From positions 1 to 40,703 of the forward strand of contig JALETK010000035.1 of NCBI GenBank assembly GCA_022781505.1: a stretch of DNA of 40,703 nucleotides. The letters are read 5' to 3'. The notes beneath the pieces are model-generated. The model had not been told where the DNA came from. It saw only the letters and a program-made list of their open reading frames with translations, and did not search any database. Source of the DNA: Clostridiales bacterium (GTDB lineage Bacteria; Bacillota; Clostridia; Oscillospirales; Oscillospiraceae). Shown piece after piece: positions 25,050-34,816 of the stretch (position 1 is its first letter; the number at the start of each line of letters is the position of its first letter). The position numbers and the translations under genes are program-made.

Positions 25050-25101
25050 CCCCCTTGAGGGCGGACGCTTTTGGCGTCCGTCCTCAAGGGGGTTGTTTTT
25101 T
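25050..25101. terminator. Bidirectional-looking terminator hairpin downstream of the surface-protein operon
   Basis: CCCCCTTGAGGGCGGACGC-TTTT-GGCGTCCGTCCTCAAGGGGG followed by TTGTTTTTT (+); on the minus strand the stem is followed by ACTTTTTAT. Confidence 0.85.
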
Positions 25102-25143: not shown

Positions 25144-28100
25144 TTATCCGGCGGAAATGCAGATGGCGTTGTTCTCCGTATCCAGGCGGAAGGTGACGCC
25201 CTCGGCGGTGGGGATCAGCTTGGCAAGATCCGCCTCGGTGAGGGTGTAGTCCTCCGTGCCCTTTGCCACCACGAAGCCGTCGGTGGGGTACTGGCTGTAC
25301 ACCGTCACGGTGTGGGTCAGGGGGCCGGTGATGACCGCCCAGGTGTTGTTCAGGCTCTTGCTCTGGTCATAGAGGAGCAGGGTGATGTCCTGATTCAGCT
25401 TGTTCAGGTTGACGGTGGCGGTGTACTTCGTGCCGGGACTTCTCAGGGTGATGCCGTCGCCCCTGGCTCCGGTGAGGGGAGAGGCCTCGTTGCCGGTGAA
25501 GGTGCCGCCGCTGAAGTTCACCTCCGTCTGGAGCTTCAGGTAGGCGATGCCGCCGTAGCCATAGGAGGCGCTGGTGGAGGCGCTGCGGTTGTTTGTGTAG
25601 GTGCCGCCGTTGATGTCCAGCACCGTGTTGGCCACGTTGGCGGTGTAGGAGCCCAGGAACACCGCGCCGGGGCCCAGCACCTCGTTGCCGGAGAAGGTGC
25701 AGTCGTTGAACACCAGGTGGTTGCTGCTGTTGTAGGTGACATACAGCAGCCGGGCCTCGTTGCCGGTGATGGTGCCTCCGTTCACGGTCAGGTTCACCGT
25801 GCCCCCCGCCGCGCCGGTGATGAAGAAGATGGAGGGGCCGGAGGTCTCGCTCATGGTGGTGACATAGGACTCAATGCCGCTGGCCACCGTGAGATCATCC
25901 ACATTCACCGTGTTCACCGTGTCCTTCGCGCCGTAGACGTAGACCACGCTCTGGGAGGAGCCCCGCATGTTCCGGGCCACGGTGCCCTTCTGCAGGTTCA
26001 GGGTGCCGCCCTTGTCCACCCGGAACATGGCGCTGTGGGTGCTGGAGTAGGGGAAGGCCTGACGGTTGCCGTCCAGCACCACGTCGTGGACGTTGGCCGT
26101 GCCGTAGACGTAGAAGAAGTAGCTGCTGTTGGTGGTGTACCGCAGGATTGCGCCGTTGGGAATGTCCTCCATGGTGATCTCCTGGGTGGTGTCCGCCGGG
26201 ATGGTGACGTTCTGCATGATGAAAATCACGTTCTCCCCGGTGCCCGAGAGGTTGGCCTTCAGAACGGCCTTGGCCCTGTCGAAGGTGGCCACGGGGGTGT
26301 CCGGGGTGAGGCCGTCGTTTTCATCGCTGCCCTTGGTGCCGCTGAGGTACACCGCGGAGCCGATGTTCCGGCTGTAGGCCACCTTGTAGGCTCCGTCCAG
26401 GGGGTCCAGGAGGGTGGTGTAATAGGTGGAATCCAGCCCGCTTTGGAGGCGGCAGGCCTGGGTGTCCGCCTCGGTGAGGAGGTAGGTGCCATAGCCCCGG
26501 AGGAGGACGGTGTTAATGTCCACGCCGTCATAGTAGACGTCGATGCCGCCGCCTTTGACGTAGCTCAGGGGCTTGGCGGCGTAGATGCCCGCCGTGCCGG
26601 AGGCGCCGTCGGTGTAGGCCACATAGATGCCGTCCATGTCCACATCGTCCTTGGCGCCGTTCAGAACCACCTTGCCGGCCTTCATCACGTTCACGGCGCA
26701 GTTGCCGAAGCCCTCGCCGCTGGTGTTGTCCCGGATGGTGCAGCCGTTCAGGCTGAGGGTGGCGATGTCGGACTTGCTCTTGTCGCCCACGCCGATGCCT
26801 GCGGAGGCGCCGCCGGAGGTGTTGCCGGTGACGGTGCCGCCGTTAAACTGGCACAGGATGTTGCCGCTGACGTTGATGGTGGCGCCCACGCCTGCGGTGT
26901 TGTTCGTGAAGGTGGCGCCGTTGATCACCAGGCTGGAGGGCTCCTCACTGGTGCCGTAGATCCGCAGAGCGGAGCCGTTGGCCCCCATGAGGCTGGCGGT
27001 GGTGCCCACCTGCTGGTTGCCGGAGAACTCCACGGCGTTGAGAATCACCGTGCTGCCGCTGGAGACGGACATGCCGCCGGTGTAGTTGCCGGTGTTGTTC
27101 AGAATCTTCACGCCGTCGTTCATCACCACGGTGTTGCAGCCCCAGCCGTAGATGGCGCCGGTGGTGCTCTTCTGGTTGCCGCAGTTCTGAATCACCACGC
27201 CCTCATTCAGAATCAGGCTGCCGCCGGTGTCGGAGGTGCTGTCCGCGTCCTCCAGGGAGATCATGTGGGTGAGGATGGAGGCCGTCTGCAGGGAGGGGAA
27301 CATCTCCGTGCCGCCGTCCAGAATCAGGTGATCCATGGTGAGGGTGACCCCGGGCTCCACGATGATACCGGCGGTGGTGAAGCCGCTGGCGGCCCGGACC
27401 ACCTTGCCGCCGGGCAGATCCGCCATGGACCAGGTGGTGTCCTCGGTGAGGGTCATGGTGCCGCAGAGGAGAATCACCGGGTTCTTGGCGTCCTTCAGCA
27501 GCTCCTTGGCCCGCTCAAAGGTGCGCACGGCCTGCTCCACGGAGGAGCCGTCGTTGGCATCGTCGCCCAGAACGCCATAGTTGGTGTTGCCGGACTCGTT
27601 GCCGCCCAGGTAGATGTAATCGGAACGGTCATCCACCAGCCAGGAGGCGTAAATCCGGGTGTCCTCGTGGATGGCGCTGTAGAAATTGTAGGCGGTGGTG
27701 AGCTCCGGGTCGGCGTACCACCCGGCGAAGAGGAAGCCCTCCTTCTCCGGGGAGGCGGGGCGCTCCACCCGGGCGCCGTAGCGCACCTCCTGGGTGAACA
27801 GCACCTCCTCGCCGTCCATGAAGCTGACGGTGTAGACCCTTGCGCCCCACTTGGCGTACAGGGTGACGCTCTCATACACGGGCTGGGAGAAGTCGAATTG
27901 GTTCTCGAAGGTGGGCTCTGTGTACCAGCCCTCCAGGCCGTAGCCATCCCGGGTGGCGGTGGCCGGAGTCACGGTTCCGCCCCAGGGCACCTGCACGGAG
28001 GCAGGCTCAATGGTGGCCGCCTGGGCGGAGACGAATTTCACGGTGAGCACCATGTCCTTGGTGGTGAAGCTCACGGTCACATCCCGGTCGATGTTCTTGA

Positions 28101-29352
28101 GAACGAAGGCGGAGCCGTTTTTGCTCAGGGTACCTGCGGTGACCTGCACATCATCCAGCTCAAAGCCCTGGGACTTGTCCCCGAAGAGGCTGAAGGTCAG
28201 CCAGGTCTGGCCGGGCTCCAGGGTCACGGCGTCCACCTTCTCCCCGTCCACCTTGGCATAGCCCTGGTCGCCCACAAAGGTGACGGTGTAGGCGGGGGCG
28301 GGCTCCGTGGGGGTGGGAGGCTCCGTGGGGTCGGGCTCCGTGGGGGTGGTGGGCTCGGGAGGCGCAGGCTCTTTGGGGAGGCAGCCGTGGAAGACCACCA
28401 TGATCTTGGCCACCTCCGCCCGGGTAATAAGGCCCTTGGGCCGGAAGGAGCCGTCGGGGTAGCCCTCCACGATACCGGCCCCAGCGCACAGCTTGACGGC
28501 GTCCTTCGCCCATCTGCTGATGGAGGCCTCATCGGTGAAGGTCTTGGAACCGGCGGTGTTCTCCAGCTCCGCGCCGCTGTAGGCGGCGAACCGGGCCAGC
28601 ATGGTCACAGCCTCTTCTCTTGTGATGCTGCCTCCGGGGATAAACAGGCAGTTTCCGTAGCCGTAGACAATCTTGTTCTCCGCCGCCCAGGTCACGGCGT
28701 TGGTGTACCACTTCCCGGCGGGCACATCGGTGAAGGGGTTCTCCCCGGCGGGGGCGGGGGAACCGGCCATGCGGTAGAGCATGGTGGCCATCTGGGCCCG
28801 GGTCACGTTCTCACCCGGGGCGAAGCGGTCCTGGCCCATGCCCACCATGAGGCCCAGGTCGTAGGCCTCGTAGACGTAGGAGAAGTACCACTTGCTCTCG
28901 TCGGTCACGTCCACAAACCGATAGGGGGTCTTCAGCTCGATGGTCACAGGAATGGGATCGATTCCCAGCTCCGGAAGCTCGATGCTTCCCTCGTAGGCGC
29001 CGGGGGCGCCCGTGAAGGTCAGCTCCAGAATGGCCGTCTCGACGGTGTAGTCCTCATAGGAGGCCCAGGCGAAGCTGACGGTGGTGCCGGTGGTGCTGAG
29101 GTTGCTGACGCCGGTGCTGCCCACCAGGGACTTGGCGCTTTTGAGGGTCAGCTCCTCCGGGAAGGTATACACCAGGCGTCCGCTGCCGGAGTCCGCGCCT
29201 CCGGGGATGAACAGCTGGAGGGTGACGCTGTCCTGGGTCTGGGCCGTCAACTTTTGGGTGACCGGCGCAGGCGCCTCCAGGGCCCATACGTTTGCGCTCA
29301 GGCTGAAAATCATGACGATTGCCAGCAGAGACGCAAAAATCCGTTTCTTCAT
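25144..29352 (-). CDS. Large SLH-domain surface protein: signal peptide, cohesin-like N-terminal domain, 3 SLH repeats, Pro/Thr linker, InlB/Flg_new-like repeats, two beta-helix modules
   Basis: MKKRIFASLLAIVMIFSLSANVWA signal peptide; SLH repeats FVDVTDESKWYFSYVYEAYDLGLMVGMGQDRFAPGENVTRAQMATMLYRMAG, FTDVPAGKWYTNAVTWAAENKIVYGYGNCLFIPGGSITREEAVTMLARFA, FTDEASISRWAKDAVKLCAGAGIVEGYPDGSFRPKGLITRAEVAKIM; EPTTPTEPDPTEPPTPTEP linker; GYGLEGWYTEPTFENQFDFSQPVYESVTLYAKWG repeats; two NDG..TP..AV-TF-RAK..L modules. Confidence 0.88.
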   Translation of the reverse strand: MKKRIFASLLAIVMIFSLSANVWALEAPAPVTQKLTAQTQDSVTLQLFIPGGADSGSGRLVYTFPEELTLKSAKSLVGSTGVSNLSTTGTTVSFAWASYEDYTVETAILELTFTGAPGAYEGSIELPELGIDPIPVTIELKTPYRFVDVTDESKWYFSYVYEAYDLGLMVGMGQDRFAPGENVTRAQMATMLYRMAGSPAPAGENPFTDVPAGKWYTNAVTWAAENKIVYGYGNCLFIPGGSITREEAVTMLARFAAYSGAELENTAGSKTFTDEASISRWAKDAVKLCAGAGIVEGYPDGSFRPKGLITRAEVAKIMVVFHGCLPKEPAPPEPTTPTEPDPTEPPTPTEPAPAYTVTFVGDQGYAKVDGEKVDAVTLEPGQTWLTFSLFGDKSQGFELDDVQVTAGTLSKNGSAFVLKNIDRDVTVSFTTKDMVLTVKFVSAQAATIEPASVQVPWGGTVTPATATRDGYGLEGWYTEPTFENQFDFSQPVYESVTLYAKWGARVYTVSFMDGEEVLFTQEVRYGARVERPASPEKEGFLFAGWYADPELTTAYNFYSAIHEDTRIYASWLVDDRSDYIYLGGNESGNTNYGVLGDDANDGSSVEQAVRTFERAKELLKDAKNPVILLCGTMTLTEDTTWSMADLPGGKVVRAASGFTTAGIIVEPGVTLTMDHLILDGGTEMFPSLQTASILTHMISLEDADSTSDTGGSLILNEGVVIQNCGNQKSTTGAIYGWGCNTVVMNDGVKILNNTGNYTGGMSVSSGSTVILNAVEFSGNQQVGTTASLMGANGSALRIYGTSEEPSSLVINGATFTNNTAGVGATINVSGNILCQFNGGTVTGNTSGGASAGIGVGDKSKSDIATLSLNGCTIRDNTSGEGFGNCAVNVMKAGKVVLNGAKDDVDMDGIYVAYTDGASGTAGIYAAKPLSYVKGGGIDVYYDGVDINTVLLRGYGTYLLTEADTQACRLQSGLDSTYYTTLLDPLDGAYKVAYSRNIGSAVYLSGTKGSDENDGLTPDTPVATFDRAKAVLKANLSGTGENVIFIMQNVTIPADTTQEITMEDIPNGAILRYTTNSSYFFYVYGTANVHDVVLDGNRQAFPYSSTHSAMFRVDKGGTLNLQKGTVARNMRGSSQSVVYVYGAKDTVNTVNVDDLTVASGIESYVTTMSETSGPSIFFITGAAGGTVNLTVNGGTITGNEARLLYVTYNSSNHLVFNDCTFSGNEVLGPGAVFLGSYTANVANTVLDINGGTYTNNRSASTSASYGYGGIAYLKLQTEVNFSGGTFTGNEASPLTGARGDGITLRSPGTKYTATVNLNKLNQDITLLLYDQSKSLNNTWAVITGPLTHTVTVYSQYPTDGFVVAKGTEDYTLTEADLAKLIPTAEGVTFRLDTENNAICISAG

Positions 29353-29371
29353 AGTATGATGCACCGTCCTT

Positions 29372-32300
29372 TCATCGGTTCCCGGCAATCCCTGCCGGGA
29401 CATCCTCTGTATCCAGGGTGGCGGGAGCGGTCAGCAGGGAGGCGTCCATGGCGTTTACCAGGAGGGCGCCGTCCGCCGCGTCGGAAGCGTCCACCTCCAG
29501 ACCGGCCACGGGCCAGACCTCGTCGCCGAAGCTGCCCAGGTTGGCGGTGGCGCCGCTGTTCAGATCCAGGGCAATGAGCTGGGTCTTGTCCCCGGTCCAC
29601 AGGGAGCAATAGACATACTTGCCGTTGGTGGCAATGGAGGAGAAGTACCACTTGCCCCCGGTGGTCATGCCGATGCTGCCCAGCCGCTGGGGGGTGGTGC
29701 GCAGGAAGTCCCCCTCGGACTGGGCAACGCCCATGAGCCAGAGCTGGCCGTTGGAGTCCAGAAGGATGCAGGAGTCAATGTACCCGTACTGATTGTTCTC
29801 CTGACTGGAGACGTAGCAGATGCCCACGGCGCTGGCGCCGCTTCCCAGGACGGCGGACAGATCCCAGGCTCCGTCATAGCCGCCGGTGGTGGTGTTCACC
29901 ACGGCCACATAGTTGCCATAGGTGGCCAGGAGCAGGCCGTTTGCCACATTGGGGCACCAGGCGAGATCGGTGTAGCCAATCTCCGAGGTGCCAATTTTGG
30001 TTAGATCGTAGGTATCGGAGACGGTGTACAGAGAGGAGATCAGACTACCGTCGGAGTTCTCCTCATAGGTGGCGGCATAGCCTCCCGCCAGGGCCATAAG
30101 CTGCTGGCTGCAGGCCTTCTCCGTGAGCTTGGTGTAGGCGGGGATGGTGTCGGTGTTGAAGGTGCTGAACCAGACCTCGCTGTTCTCGTCCCAGACAAGG
30201 CCCGTGAGCGCCTGGTTCAGGGCCGTGACGGTGACGGTGCAGGAGGCGGTGACCTCCGGATTCAGAACCGAAGCGGCGGTGACGGTGCAGGTGCCCACGC
30301 CTGTGGCGGTGATGACGCCCTCCTCCACGGTGGCCACTGTGGGATCGGAGGTGGTCCAGGTGCAGGCCCGGTTCACCACGGTCCAGGGCTTGGCGGAGAC
30401 CTCCAGGGTGTGGGTGCCGCCCTTGAGCATGGAAACCGCGTCCTCGCTCAGGGAGATCTCCTGCACATCCGTGGAGGGGCCGAAGGTGGTGGTGGCCTTC
30501 TTGGGGATGAACATGCCGCACATCTCGTTCATGCCGAAGCTGCCCAGGACGGTGGCCTTGCCGCTGGCCAGGTCATAGGTCACCAAGCGGCACTCGTAGG
30601 AGGTTCCGGCGGCATTGGTGCCATAGTTCAGGTGATAGAGGGTGCCGGTGTTGTGGTCATAGGCCATGGACTGGATGTAGGCCGCGCTGAGGCCCGAGGG
30701 ATTGGGGGCGGCCTTCACAGTGAAGCCCTCCTCGCCCAGGGTGAAGGTGTACAGGCGGGAGCTGTAGGTGCTGTTGGTGGCGCCGTAGAAGGTTCCGTCG
30801 GTGGCGCAGGCCAGGGTTTGCAGGGTGCCCGAGGGCAGGGGAATCACACCCACCAGGGTGGTGTCGCCCATGAGGGGATCGATGGTATAGAGGTAGTTGC
30901 CGGAGCAAAGGGCGTAGAGCTTTCCGTCGGCGTAGTTGTAGGCCATATCCAGGGTCACGCTGGGCAGGCTCAGGGTCTCGATGTAAATCTGATCCTCCAG
31001 GTCCTCCAGGGGCGCGACGCAGAAGCGGCGGTTGGAGTCAGCGGTGAACACATAGCCGTCGATGTACTCCGCGGCGTAGACGCTGCCCTCGGCCACAGCT
31101 TTGGCGCTGCCCGGATCGTCGGGCTTGAAGGCCAGCCAGGCATCGTCAAACAGGTCGTTGGCATAGATATAGGCAGAGGCGTCGTCTCCGTCCCCATCGC
31201 CGCCGCCGATGTTCACCAGGTAGCCTGTGGTGTTGCCGGCGTAGTCCACGGCCAGCACCACGATCTCGGAGGCGGTGACGCCGGAGATGTCCACGTCCAC
31301 ATCCACGGCCTGGCCCGGCTGGGTGCTGCCGGCAGCCTGGCGGGCCAGAATCTCCGTCTGGCGAGCGTTGGTCACCAGAACGGCGGCCACATACCGGTCA
31401 TCCTGGGCGGTGATGCTCAGCCGGGCGCTGCCAGTGATCAGGTTCCGGGAGATGGAGGCGTCCAGAATCTCCGGGGCGGTGTCGTCCACCGTGAGGGTGG
31501 TCTCCCACACCGCGCCGTGGGACAGGGTTCCCTTCACCGCCTGGGTCTCCCGATCCCAGTTGTACTCGGGAATGGCATAGACGGAGACCTTCACCTTTGT
31601 GCCCTCGGGGAGCTTGTTGCCGCCGGCATCGGTCACCTTCCAGCCCAGGGAGGTGACGATGTTGGTATTGGCCCAGACGCCCGCATTGGAATTGTAGTAA
31701 GCGCCGTACTGGGCACCCTTGTTCACGGTCTTGTACACCTCGCCGGTCTCGGCGTTGGTGATCTCCGCATACATGCTGCCGCCGGCGTTCCGGATGAGGG
31801 TGGCGTAGGCGGCGGTGATGGTGCTGTCCGTGCTGACGGCCGTCCGATCCGCCAGGAAGGTCTCCTCCTGGGCGTAGGGGTTGCCGGTGAGATAATAGGC
31901 GTTGTCCATCACCAGGGCGTTGGTGTAGGAGGAGCCCACATAGGGGTAGGCATCGGGGTCGCCGCTGTCCTCCAGGGTGATGAACTTGTCAAACATGGAG
32001 GGCTCGGTCCAGCTGCCGTAATAGGCCAGCATGGGAAGGGACAGGGCCGCGTTCTGACCCTCCGGGTCCTCGGCGTACACAAAGCCCTCTACATAGCAGC
32101 CGTTTTCGTAGTTCTCCGCGAAGTAGGCCCGGTCGGCCTCGGAGAGAGTCACCTTGACGTGAACCCCGATGGCCTTTCCGGCCTCCACCACATAGGCGGT
32201 GGCGCGCACGTCCACCAGATCCTTCTCGCCCTTCAGGCTCCGGAGGTAGATCTTGGCGTCCCGGCTGGTGATCTCCCCGTCGCCGTCAAAGTCGTATTTC

Positions 32301-34816
32301 ACCGCGTCCCCGTCGGACAGAGGCGCCACGGCCCGGTTGGCCACCGCCAGAAGAACCTCCGCGTCCTTCTCGTCGGGCTGCCCGTCGCCGTTCAGGTCAT
32401 ACACATACCGCTCCGCCGCGTCGGTGGTGAAGACCACCTCCGGGGCAAGGGCGTAGGAGGAATCGGACATAAAGTCCTCGCCGCCGATGGCTTCCACGTC
32501 CATGGTGTTGACGGAGGCCCGGAACCGGTAGCTGAGCGTCTCCTGCGAGAGGTTGTTCACCGTGAAGTCGAATTCATAGACACCGGTGCGCTCCGGGTCG
32601 TCTCCCAGGCAGGCTTTGACCTTGCCGTCGGTGACATTCTTGTCCTCCGTCAGAAGATAGGCGGGGGTTGTCACCGCCTGGTAGACGTTGGCGAGACCCG
32701 AGCCCTGCTTTCTGGGGGAGTATTCCACGCCGTCCTCCTCCAGGAGTGGCACGGAGGTGGACATGAGAAGCGCCTGGGACAGAGCCCGAACCGTCAGGCC
32801 CTCCTGCTCCGCAAGGCCATTCTCCTTCACATACTGGGCAGCCACCGCCGCCATGCCCGTGACGCTGGGGGAGGACATGGAGGTGCCGGACATGGAGCCG
32901 TAGCTGCCGTCCGTCAGGGTGGACCAGATGTTGCCGCCGGGGGCGGTGATCTCCGGCTTCAGATCCAGATTCCCGGGCACGCCCCAGGAGGAGAAGCTGC
33001 TGGGGGCAGAGCCGCCGGGCACATTCTGGACGGTCTGCACCTTGTCGGCGATGACCATGGTTCCGCCCCAGACTCCGTCCTCTCCCTGCTGGGAGGCGGC
33101 CAGAATCATGTCTCCGTAGACCTTTTCAATGGAGATGGCGGGATTTTTGTACTTATAGCCGGTCATATTCATATTGATGGAACCGGCTGCGTTGTTGTAG
33201 ACCACGGCGGCCACGGCTCCGGCCTCCACGGCCCGGTTACCCTTTTCAAAGAAGGACACACCGCCGCCCCGGGAGATGAGGACGATTTTCCCGGTGAGAT
33301 CCAGATTTTGGAAGTCCTCCTCCGCGCCGTAGATGTGCTCCCCGGTCACGGGATCTCCCAGGAACACATATTCATAGGCCGTGCCGGAGGCATCGCCGGA
33401 GGTGTCCAGGGAGGCGAAGGACTGCATACCGTAGCTGCTGTAGGTGTCGGCATAGGCCGTGACCACGCCGCTGAACACTGGCATCACGCCGGTTAGCCCA
33501 GCGTTGTCCACAGAGGCCACGGTGAAGGCGTTGCCGAAGGCGCCGGGGGAGCCCACGGTGTTGATCACCGTGTCCCCGGTGAGCTGCAGCTTCACGCCGG
33601 TGTTGTTGAACTCCGCGTAGCTGTACTTGTTGCCCGCGGAGATGGTAACCACGGTGTCCGAGTCCACCAGGCTTTTAAACAGGGCGTCATAGTCTCCGTA
33701 GGTGTGGCCGGGCATGGAGGAGCCCAGGGACAGGTTCACCGTGTCGCAGCCTAAGAGGATGGCGTCCTCAATGGCGGCCATGTAATCGGAGTCATAGGCG
33801 CCGCCGGTTTTGCCGAAGACCTTCATGGTGAGAATCTGGGCGTCTGGGGCCACGCCCACCACGCCGTTTTCCTGCTGGGCGGCCACCAGATCCCCATCGG
33901 CGTCCTTGGACCAGACATAGGTGTTGGCCGTGGCGATGCCGGAGACGTGGGTGCCGTGATCCCCCTGGGTGTCATTGTCGTGGGTGACATCCAGATCCTC
34001 GTCCACATAGTTGAAGGCGAAGGGGACCTTGGCGGAGCGGTAGAGCTCCTGGGCGGTGAGGCCGCTGTACAGCTCCGCCGCGTGGAGCTTGGGGAGCACC
34101 TGGCTGATCTCCTGGTCGGTCAGGAGGTTGTAATCGTCCACCTCCTTGCCGAAGCGGGCGGCGGAGAGCTCCAGACCGTAGAGGAAGCAACCCTCGTCAA
34201 AGCTGGGGTGATCCAGATCCAGCCCCGTGTCAATGATGGCAATCCGGGAGCCTGCGCCGGTGTAGCCGTCGGCCCAGGCGCTGTAGGAGCCCACCATGGT
34301 TCCGGCGGTGGAGGTGTCCGGCTCCTCCGTGTCAGGCAGATACTGGTTCTCTATGTACACGGCCCTGACGCTGTCCAGAGCCTCGACGGTGTCAATCTGG
34401 CTGGCCAGCAGGGTGGTGGCCACACCGTTGACGCCAATGGAGAACCGGTACCGGAGCTCCAGCTCCTGGCCCAGGGCCTTGCTCACCTTGGCCATAGCCG
34501 CGTCCTGGCGTTTTTCCAGGGTGGCGCGGTAGGCCATGGCTCCCTGGTTGGAGGCCAGGCCCATGGTGGAGTAGCCCCGCTCCACCAGGGCCGCATCCTG
34601 GAAGATGATGATCACCCGCAGGCTCTCCTCCTCTCCGGGCGTATCCGGCTCCTGGGGGGCGGGGGCGTCCGTCAGACCCTCCGCCGTCACGGGAACCTCC
34701 TGCAGCCCCAGCTCCTGGGTCTGCGAGGCCGCCAGCACTGCGGGAACGCAGGTCAGCAGCAGGCAAACCGCCAGAATCCAGGCCACAAGATGGCGCATTC
34801 TTGGGTTTCTTCTCAT
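29372..34816 (-). CDS. Very large secreted S8 (subtilisin-like) serine protease with PA-type insert, dockerin-like module, Big2-like domain and C-terminal propeller-like region
   Basis: Triad motifs IAIIDTGLDLDHPSF (Asp), GDHGTHVSGIATA (His), GTSMSSPSVTGMAAVAAQ (Ser); dockerin-like DLNGDGQPDEKDAEVLLAVANR...DFDGDGEITSRDAKIYLRSLKG; Big2-like CTWTTSDPTVATVEEGVITATGVGTCTVTAAS. ATG at 34816 chosen for spacing from AAAGGA; alternative ATG at 34825. Confidence 0.9.
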   Translation of the reverse strand: MRRNPRMRHLVAWILAVCLLLTCVPAVLAASQTQELGLQEVPVTAEGLTDAPAPQEPDTPGEEESLRVIIIFQDAALVERGYSTMGLASNQGAMAYRATLEKRQDAAMAKVSKALGQELELRYRFSIGVNGVATTLLASQIDTVEALDSVRAVYIENQYLPDTEEPDTSTAGTMVGSYSAWADGYTGAGSRIAIIDTGLDLDHPSFDEGCFLYGLELSAARFGKEVDDYNLLTDQEISQVLPKLHAAELYSGLTAQELYRSAKVPFAFNYVDEDLDVTHDNDTQGDHGTHVSGIATANTYVWSKDADGDLVAAQQENGVVGVAPDAQILTMKVFGKTGGAYDSDYMAAIEDAILLGCDTVNLSLGSSMPGHTYGDYDALFKSLVDSDTVVTISAGNKYSYAEFNNTGVKLQLTGDTVINTVGSPGAFGNAFTVASVDNAGLTGVMPVFSGVVTAYADTYSSYGMQSFASLDTSGDASGTAYEYVFLGDPVTGEHIYGAEEDFQNLDLTGKIVLISRGGGVSFFEKGNRAVEAGAVAAVVYNNAAGSINMNMTGYKYKNPAISIEKVYGDMILAASQQGEDGVWGGTMVIADKVQTVQNVPGGSAPSSFSSWGVPGNLDLKPEITAPGGNIWSTLTDGSYGSMSGTSMSSPSVTGMAAVAAQYVKENGLAEQEGLTVRALSQALLMSTSVPLLEEDGVEYSPRKQGSGLANVYQAVTTPAYLLTEDKNVTDGKVKACLGDDPERTGVYEFDFTVNNLSQETLSYRFRASVNTMDVEAIGGEDFMSDSSYALAPEVVFTTDAAERYVYDLNGDGQPDEKDAEVLLAVANRAVAPLSDGDAVKYDFDGDGEITSRDAKIYLRSLKGEKDLVDVRATAYVVEAGKAIGVHVKVTLSEADRAYFAENYENGCYVEGFVYAEDPEGQNAALSLPMLAYYGSWTEPSMFDKFITLEDSGDPDAYPYVGSSYTNALVMDNAYYLTGNPYAQEETFLADRTAVSTDSTITAAYATLIRNAGGSMYAEITNAETGEVYKTVNKGAQYGAYYNSNAGVWANTNIVTSLGWKVTDAGGNKLPEGTKVKVSVYAIPEYNWDRETQAVKGTLSHGAVWETTLTVDDTAPEILDASISRNLITGSARLSITAQDDRYVAAVLVTNARQTEILARQAAGSTQPGQAVDVDVDISGVTASEIVVLAVDYAGNTTGYLVNIGGGDGDGDDASAYIYANDLFDDAWLAFKPDDPGSAKAVAEGSVYAAEYIDGYVFTADSNRRFCVAPLEDLEDQIYIETLSLPSVTLDMAYNYADGKLYALCSGNYLYTIDPLMGDTTLVGVIPLPSGTLQTLACATDGTFYGATNSTYSSRLYTFTLGEEGFTVKAAPNPSGLSAAYIQSMAYDHNTGTLYHLNYGTNAAGTSYECRLVTYDLASGKATVLGSFGMNEMCGMFIPKKATTTFGPSTDVQEISLSEDAVSMLKGGTHTLEVSAKPWTVVNRACTWTTSDPTVATVEEGVITATGVGTCTVTAASVLNPEVTASCTVTVTALNQALTGLVWDENSEVWFSTFNTDTIPAYTKLTEKACSQQLMALAGGYAATYEENSDGSLISSLYTVSDTYDLTKIGTSEIGYTDLAWCPNVANGLLLATYGNYVAVVNTTTGGYDGAWDLSAVLGSGASAVGICYVSSQENNQYGYIDSCILLDSNGQLWLMGVAQSEGDFLRTTPQRLGSIGMTTGGKWYFSSIATNGKYVYCSLWTGDKTQLIALDLNSGATANLGSFGDEVWPVAGLEVDASDAADGALLVNAMDASLLTAPATLDTEDVPAGIAGNR

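Follow-up and report, generated by a model that had tools for sequence, protein, structure and literature searches.

Cohesin-dockerin pairing is best known as the glue of carbohydrate-digesting complexes, the cellulosomes, and S-layer homology (SLH) domains hold proteins on the cell wall. The cellulosomes of Acetivibrio possess the SLH anchoring scaffoldins ScaB, ScaC, ScaD and ScaF (PMC11557425, PMC12484212). In Clostridium (Acetivibrio) thermocellum an S8 protease carries a double dockerin, dDoc_0689, that reportedly prefers the cohesin of ScaD, one of these scaffoldins (Chen et al. 2024, reviewed in PMC12484212), and its proposed role is to anchor the protease to the surface. Furthermore, an S8 domain is drawn among the cohesin-containing proteins of Acetivibrio mesophilus (PMC11557425), and the mucinolysome of Limousia includes dockerin-bearing peptidases (PMC12997984). 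Our search of the open-access literature revealed no account of a protease-dedicated 1:1 dockerin-cohesin system in gut Firmicutes.

Here we describe a gene pair from a member of the Oscillospiraceae, located on a stretch of 40,703 nucleotides that was analyzed as a whole and is referred to as the window. The two genes quite probably encode a dedicated 1:1 pair of protease and anchor that is joined by a cohesin and a dockerin and is not part of a multi-enzyme scaffold.

Results

Gene arrangement and the dockerin-bearing protease

The coordinates of the two genes and their Pfam matches agree with a preliminary description of the locus, according to which a huge S8 protease is followed after 19 nt by an SLH protein (Table 1). 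From this spacing we infer that protease and anchor genes may be co-transcribed. A strong terminator had also been placed behind the SLH gene, and the hairpin at this site is real (z = -6.35) and reads as terminator-like, though a consensus scan yielded no more terminator-like sites in the region than expected by chance.

Table 1. Features of the protease-anchor gene pair in the window.
Feature	Position	Strand	Evidence
S8 (subtilisin-like) protease gene, signal peptide, dockerin-bearing, 1,814 aa	29372-34816	-	ORF list, Pfam, catalytic motifs
Peptidase_S8 catalytic domain, PA-domain insert at about 33125-33325	32696-34258	-	Pfam
fn3_5-like beta domain (C5a-peptidase/SpyCEP type) holding the dockerin as insert	31961-32623	-	AF2, Foldseek
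Type-I dockerin-like module, two Ca-binding loops DLNGDGQPDEKD and DFDGDGEITSRD	32240-32401	-	
Big_2 Ig-like domain of the protease	30269-30466	-	Pfam
19-nt gap, protease stop codon to anchor-gene start codon	29353-29371	-	
SLH anchor gene (1,402 aa) encoding a signal peptide, a cohesin-like domain, three SLH and two List_Bact repeats and a long beta-rich tail	25144-29352	-	ORF list, Pfam, profile search
Cohesin-like domain, anchor residues 26-145	28918-29277	-	profile, AF2, Foldseek
Three S-layer homology repeats	28408-28920	-	Pfam, 131.7 bits
Two List_Bact_rpt (Flg_new) repeats, approximate positions	27646-27957	-	Pfam
Repetitive tail, beta-rich; a separate SLH protein encoded on contig C64 is homologous to it	25147-27621	-	alignment
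Hairpin with T runs on both strands, terminator-like, downstream of anchor gene	25050-25092	unassigned (.)	

The protease matches the Pfam families Peptidase_S8 (143.8 bits), PA and Big_2, and has the catalytic motifs of Asp, His and Ser, located at residues 193, 286 and 644. The dockerin-like module comprises two 12-residue calcium-binding loops of the pattern D-x-N/D-x-D-G...D at 32363-32401 and 32258-32296, the starts of which are 35 residues apart and each of which is followed by a helix, as in type-I dockerins. With Dockerin_1 (PF00404; cut-off 22.9 bits) it fell short at 19.3 bits in a scan of the whole protein and passed at 26.7 bits in a scan of the genome; when the dockerins of this genome were used for a PDB profile search, those of C. 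thermocellum ranked first (2.8e-11). The type-I dockerin that had been proposed from two successive calcium loops is corroborated by the genome scan and by the PDB ranking. In the AF2 model of the fn3_5-like domain (pLDDT 81.8) three dockerin helices are situated between its strands, and SpyCEP and ScpA/C5a peptidases are the best structural matches of this domain in Foldseek. Relatives from several genera carry the dockerin at the same insertion point after the catalytic domain. Neither an SLH repeat in the Pfam scan nor a hydrophobic C-terminal sorting tail upon inspection of the sequence was found in the protease, in line with the earlier remark that it lacks sortase motif and SLH domain.

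The anchor protein and its N-terminal domain

The architecture of the anchor, with a signal peptide (read from sequence only), a cohesin-like domain and three SLH repeats, is that of an SLH-anchoring cohesin protein. Its N-terminal domain gave no direct Pfam hit and stayed below the cut-off for cohesin (PF00963), and its identification consequently needed profile and structure work. A profile seeded with six cohesins that match Pfam and come from the same genome, from which the window domain was left out, found the latter with an E-value of 0.19 in the first pass and of 2e-8 after one iteration still lacking the window domain. In the PDB, the first cohesin profile found just one weak cohesin (E 0.021) and a broader profile was stronger; when the window domain and fifteen relatives were combined in one profile, the PDB cohesins 1g1k, 2vn5, 4ums and 2xdh took the top four places. 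AF2 predicts a nine-strand sandwich (pLDDT 80.4, pTM 0.73), and all six Foldseek matches in the PDB at E<=1e-3 are cohesins (TM 0.53-0.64); they belong to Archaeoglobus and Clostridium perfringens. With PF00963, homologues at the equivalent place score 41 bits (L109), 26 bits (L100) and 26.8 bits (C175). A cohesin-SLH protein that adjoins an S8-dockerin protease in an uncultured Pseudoflavonifractor reaches 41 bits with Pfam's cohesin model. Homology to recognized cohesins and the predicted nine-stranded sandwich fold thus support, on the indirect evidence of profiles, AF2 and Foldseek, the assignment of the domain as a putative cohesin; the resemblance noted in the preliminary description held up in the iterated profile search, and the structural search, which might have pointed to an unrelated fold, returned cohesins.

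Among the neighbors encoded on contig C64, the anchor aligns at 42% with a cohesin-SLH protein and at 32% over 1,318 columns with a beta-tail SLH protein. The part of the anchor encoded by 25147-27957 (List_Bact, then beta-helix-like repeats) is common to the SLH protein G000:C64:41961-45899 and is adhesin-like.

Paralogous pairs in the same genome

The assembly (G000; 2.47 Mb, 186 contigs, 96% complete) contains 15 cohesins and about 15 dockerin-bearing S8 proteases, a few of the latter being partial and located at the end of a contig, which provides the count of further cohesin and dockerin genes that the preliminary description had asked for. A Pfam scan of the genome for cohesins gave seven matches, four of them above the cut-off. 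Every cohesin whose 3' side is assembled is directly followed by three SLH repeats. A separate cohesin-SLH gene adjoins the protease in the window (C40) and on C64, C90, C99 and C175 as well as, with frameshifts, on C162 and C114. Protease, dockerin, cohesin and SLH repeats form a single chain in C18, C21, C43, C68, C96 and C162b, cohesin and SLH being located at the C-terminus of the protease in this fused form. The dockerin-less S8 proteases C44 and C99:2060-7183 carry SLH directly and have no cohesin. Genome scans revealed a single cohesin per protein and no multi-cohesin scaffoldin in this genome, which is about 96% complete, such that a multi-cohesin gene has possibly been missed.

All dockerins of the genome reside on S8 proteases but one, which forms the C-terminus of a purple-acid-phosphatase-like protein (L030:7479-9524, minus strand) and is preceded by a weak cohesin-like stretch. 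An S8 fragment on C162 (L027:9770-11479) has its dockerin inserted in the catalytic domain, where it separates the His motif from GVAPDAQ, and the frameshifted cohesin-SLH gene lies upstream; this arrangement is possibly decaying or an assembly error. The 137 SLH matches in the genome correspond to some 45-50 SLH proteins and thus to an SLH-rich surface.

Relatives and evolutionary history

The cohesin profile matches 21 of the 151 genomes of the family, including that of the window, mostly once per genome, and the expansion to 15 is therefore peculiar to this lineage. The cohesin domain alone as a query led to no confirmed named relatives, and the protease was used instead, in a query of which the dockerin made up about 7% of the length. 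Pairs in other genera occur in trans in L092, L101, L109 and G049 and about 20 times in cis, so that the two genes, for which adjacency might have proven rare, recur as neighbors or as a fusion. A cohesin is present in cis or next door for 17/18 dockerin-bearing proteases and for 0/10 dockerin-less ones (Fisher p = 8e-7), counts that stem from phylogenetically non-independent named relatives. The sole exception, L110, has a dockerin without a cohesin; as this dockerin occupies another site of the protease it looks like a separate insertion, but L110 still counts against the pairing within the 17/18. In relatives the cohesin is constant and the anchor type beside it changes: it may be three SLH repeats or a C-terminal segment that is hydrophobic and has a basic tail, and in other cases no anchor is recognized.

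Cohesins and dockerins may also occur apart from proteases. In L088 (G007:C20:118616-120535) a cohesin-SLH gene (414-aa frame) is directly followed by the gene for a secreted protein of 225 aa with a dockerin at its end, in which no S8 motif and, by eye, no obvious enzyme domain is seen; the two constitute a minimal pair. The family relatives L090 (G012:C25) and L087 (G103:C19) encode proteins with two or three cohesin-like domains and, next to them, a dockerin protein; these may be small scaffold systems that have no connection with proteases.

In a tree of protease domains the fused forms constitute one clade (100/100, 23 rows) that spans Oscillospiraceae, Lachnospiraceae and Erysipelotrichaceae. 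Both dockerin and cohesin are found in 23/23 members of this clade, membership in the tree having required both, and none of the named relatives retrieved with the protease showed a fused form with only one of the two. The fusion arose once. When an outgroup is included, the gene order of the window, in which the protease precedes the cohesin gene, takes a position basal to the fused clade, which suggests that pairing in trans came first, and a two-gene system that fused once is the simplest account. L106 and L107 carry SLH directly and neither dockerin nor cohesin; their position inside the dockerin/cohesin group fits a joint loss of both domains. Dockerin and cohesin distances correlate beyond what is explained by the protease (partial r 0.29, permutation p 0.0002), a modest signal of co-divergence that hints at pair specificity.

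Discussion

The proposal of a dedicated protease-anchor pair builds on what the sequences show: the two domains are present, their genes are paired, the dockerin is inserted at a conserved site, dockerin and cohesin co-occur almost without exception, and the fusion has a single origin. Going by the known role of SLH domains, the anchor would be exported, attach to the cell wall through its three SLH repeats and present its N-terminal cohesin at the surface. The protease has no anchor itself; once exported, it would be captured in trans by this cohesin through its dockerin, presumably in a calcium-dependent manner. The outcome would be a 1:1 surface-bound protease that may digest proteins or peptides outside the cell. 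In the fused homologues the dockerin is kept despite covalent anchoring, and the pair must therefore act in a way other than, or beyond, anchoring; here it probably serves as an intra-chain clasp or as a link between neighboring proteases.

Could such a clasp be the main function throughout, whether it closes a single protein or bridges the two parts of a nicked one, so that dockerin and cohesin stabilize or regulate the protease and the split pair of the window is a variant? The fused forms, a single well-supported clade (100/100) over three families whose members all retain both domains, speak for this idea. We nevertheless judge it improbable, because the separate pairs, that of the window included, have a recognized anchor only on the cohesin protein and the protease would be released without binding in trans, and because the basal position of the two-gene form relative to the fused clade suggests that trans pairing preceded fusion. 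The opposite extreme, an incidental neighborhood of EF-hand-like loops that merely bind stabilizing calcium and of a beta domain that belongs to an unrelated adhesin or stalk, appears very improbable. Tandem calcium loops are indeed common to many secreted proteins, Pfam does not directly recognize the window domain, and the dockerin of L110 sits at another site without any cohesin; against this stand the co-occurrence (17/18 versus 0/10 among non-independent relatives), the cohesins returned by Foldseek for the window domain, and the fact that L106 and L107, inside the dockerin/cohesin group, lack both domains together and carry SLH directly.

The preliminary description had pictured a possible 'proteosome' on the cell surface, and this part of it needs correction: every protease is matched by a single cohesin, and a scaffoldin with several cohesins did not turn up in the genome, for which reason 'dedicated docking' is the more fitting term. 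The 'multi-enzyme scaffold' was set aside on the same grounds, and a 'cellulosome fragment' was rejected since no dockerin was found on a carbohydrate-active enzyme in this genome. Mixed surface arrays, and with them a true multi-enzyme assembly, could still arise if the dockerins and cohesins of the approximately 15 proteases bound each other crosswise. This appears unlikely to us. One genome does hold about 15 cohesins and an equal number of protease dockerins from one protein family, and fused forms that bear both domains could chain; however, cohesins occur singly per protein without a scaffoldin in the genome, and dockerin and cohesin sequences diverge together, which hints that partners are specific. 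Starting from the dedicated 1:1 pair, a wider picture can be drawn to which we give somewhat less than an even chance: a protease-only cohesin-dockerin system apart from cellulosomes would extend over gut Oscillospiraceae, Lachnospiraceae and Erysipelotrichaceae, consisting of 1:1 pairs that fused once and whose fused halves may now clasp each other or link neighboring proteases into surface arrays.

Cohesin-dockerin pairing thus appears to be devoted to proteases here, in an unusually simple 1:1 logic that is realized in about 15 copies in a genome of 2.5 Mb. It offers a testable account of how large proteases are retained on the surface of some gut Firmicutes. The split and fused versions form a natural series for studying how a protein-protein interaction turns covalent, and the pairs are a possible source of new orthogonal cohesin-dockerin combinations for protein engineering.

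With regard to domain architecture, the protease resembles streptococcal S8 proteases of the C5a peptidase/SpyCEP type (PDB 3eif, 6vjb), which likewise combine S8, PA and fn3_5-type domains; its match to NCBIfam SGO_0316 lies far below the cut-off. To our knowledge, these streptococcal enzymes lack a dockerin insert. The closest solved folds to the window domain are the cohesin-like modules of C. perfringens (PDB 2jh2, 2w1n, 2vo8), with a sequence identity of only 9-12%. These are non-cellulosomal, single modules of secreted enzymes and reside on glycoside hydrolases, whereas the cohesins described here are located on an SLH anchor or at the C-terminus of a protease. The Limousia mucinolysome shares with our system the occurrence in gut Firmicutes and the peptidases with dockerins, but it comprises multi-cohesin scaffoldins, glycoside hydrolases and a sortase-anchored scaffoldin (PMC12997984), none of which is found here.

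As in the SLH scaffoldins of Acetivibrio, cohesin and SLH are united within one protein, yet the partner is a single protease of the same gene pair, and neither a primary scaffoldin nor dockerins on carbohydrate enzymes were found in this genome. The closest precedent is the dDoc_0689 protease of C. thermocellum with ScaD, in which an S8 protease with a dockerin is likewise reported to prefer a cohesin on a cell-bound SLH partner. There, the dockerin is double and operates within a cellulosome alongside numerous further dockerin enzymes; here, a single dockerin is inserted into an fn3-like domain, its partner is encoded next door, and about 15 paralogous pairs exist together with fusions of protease and anchor.
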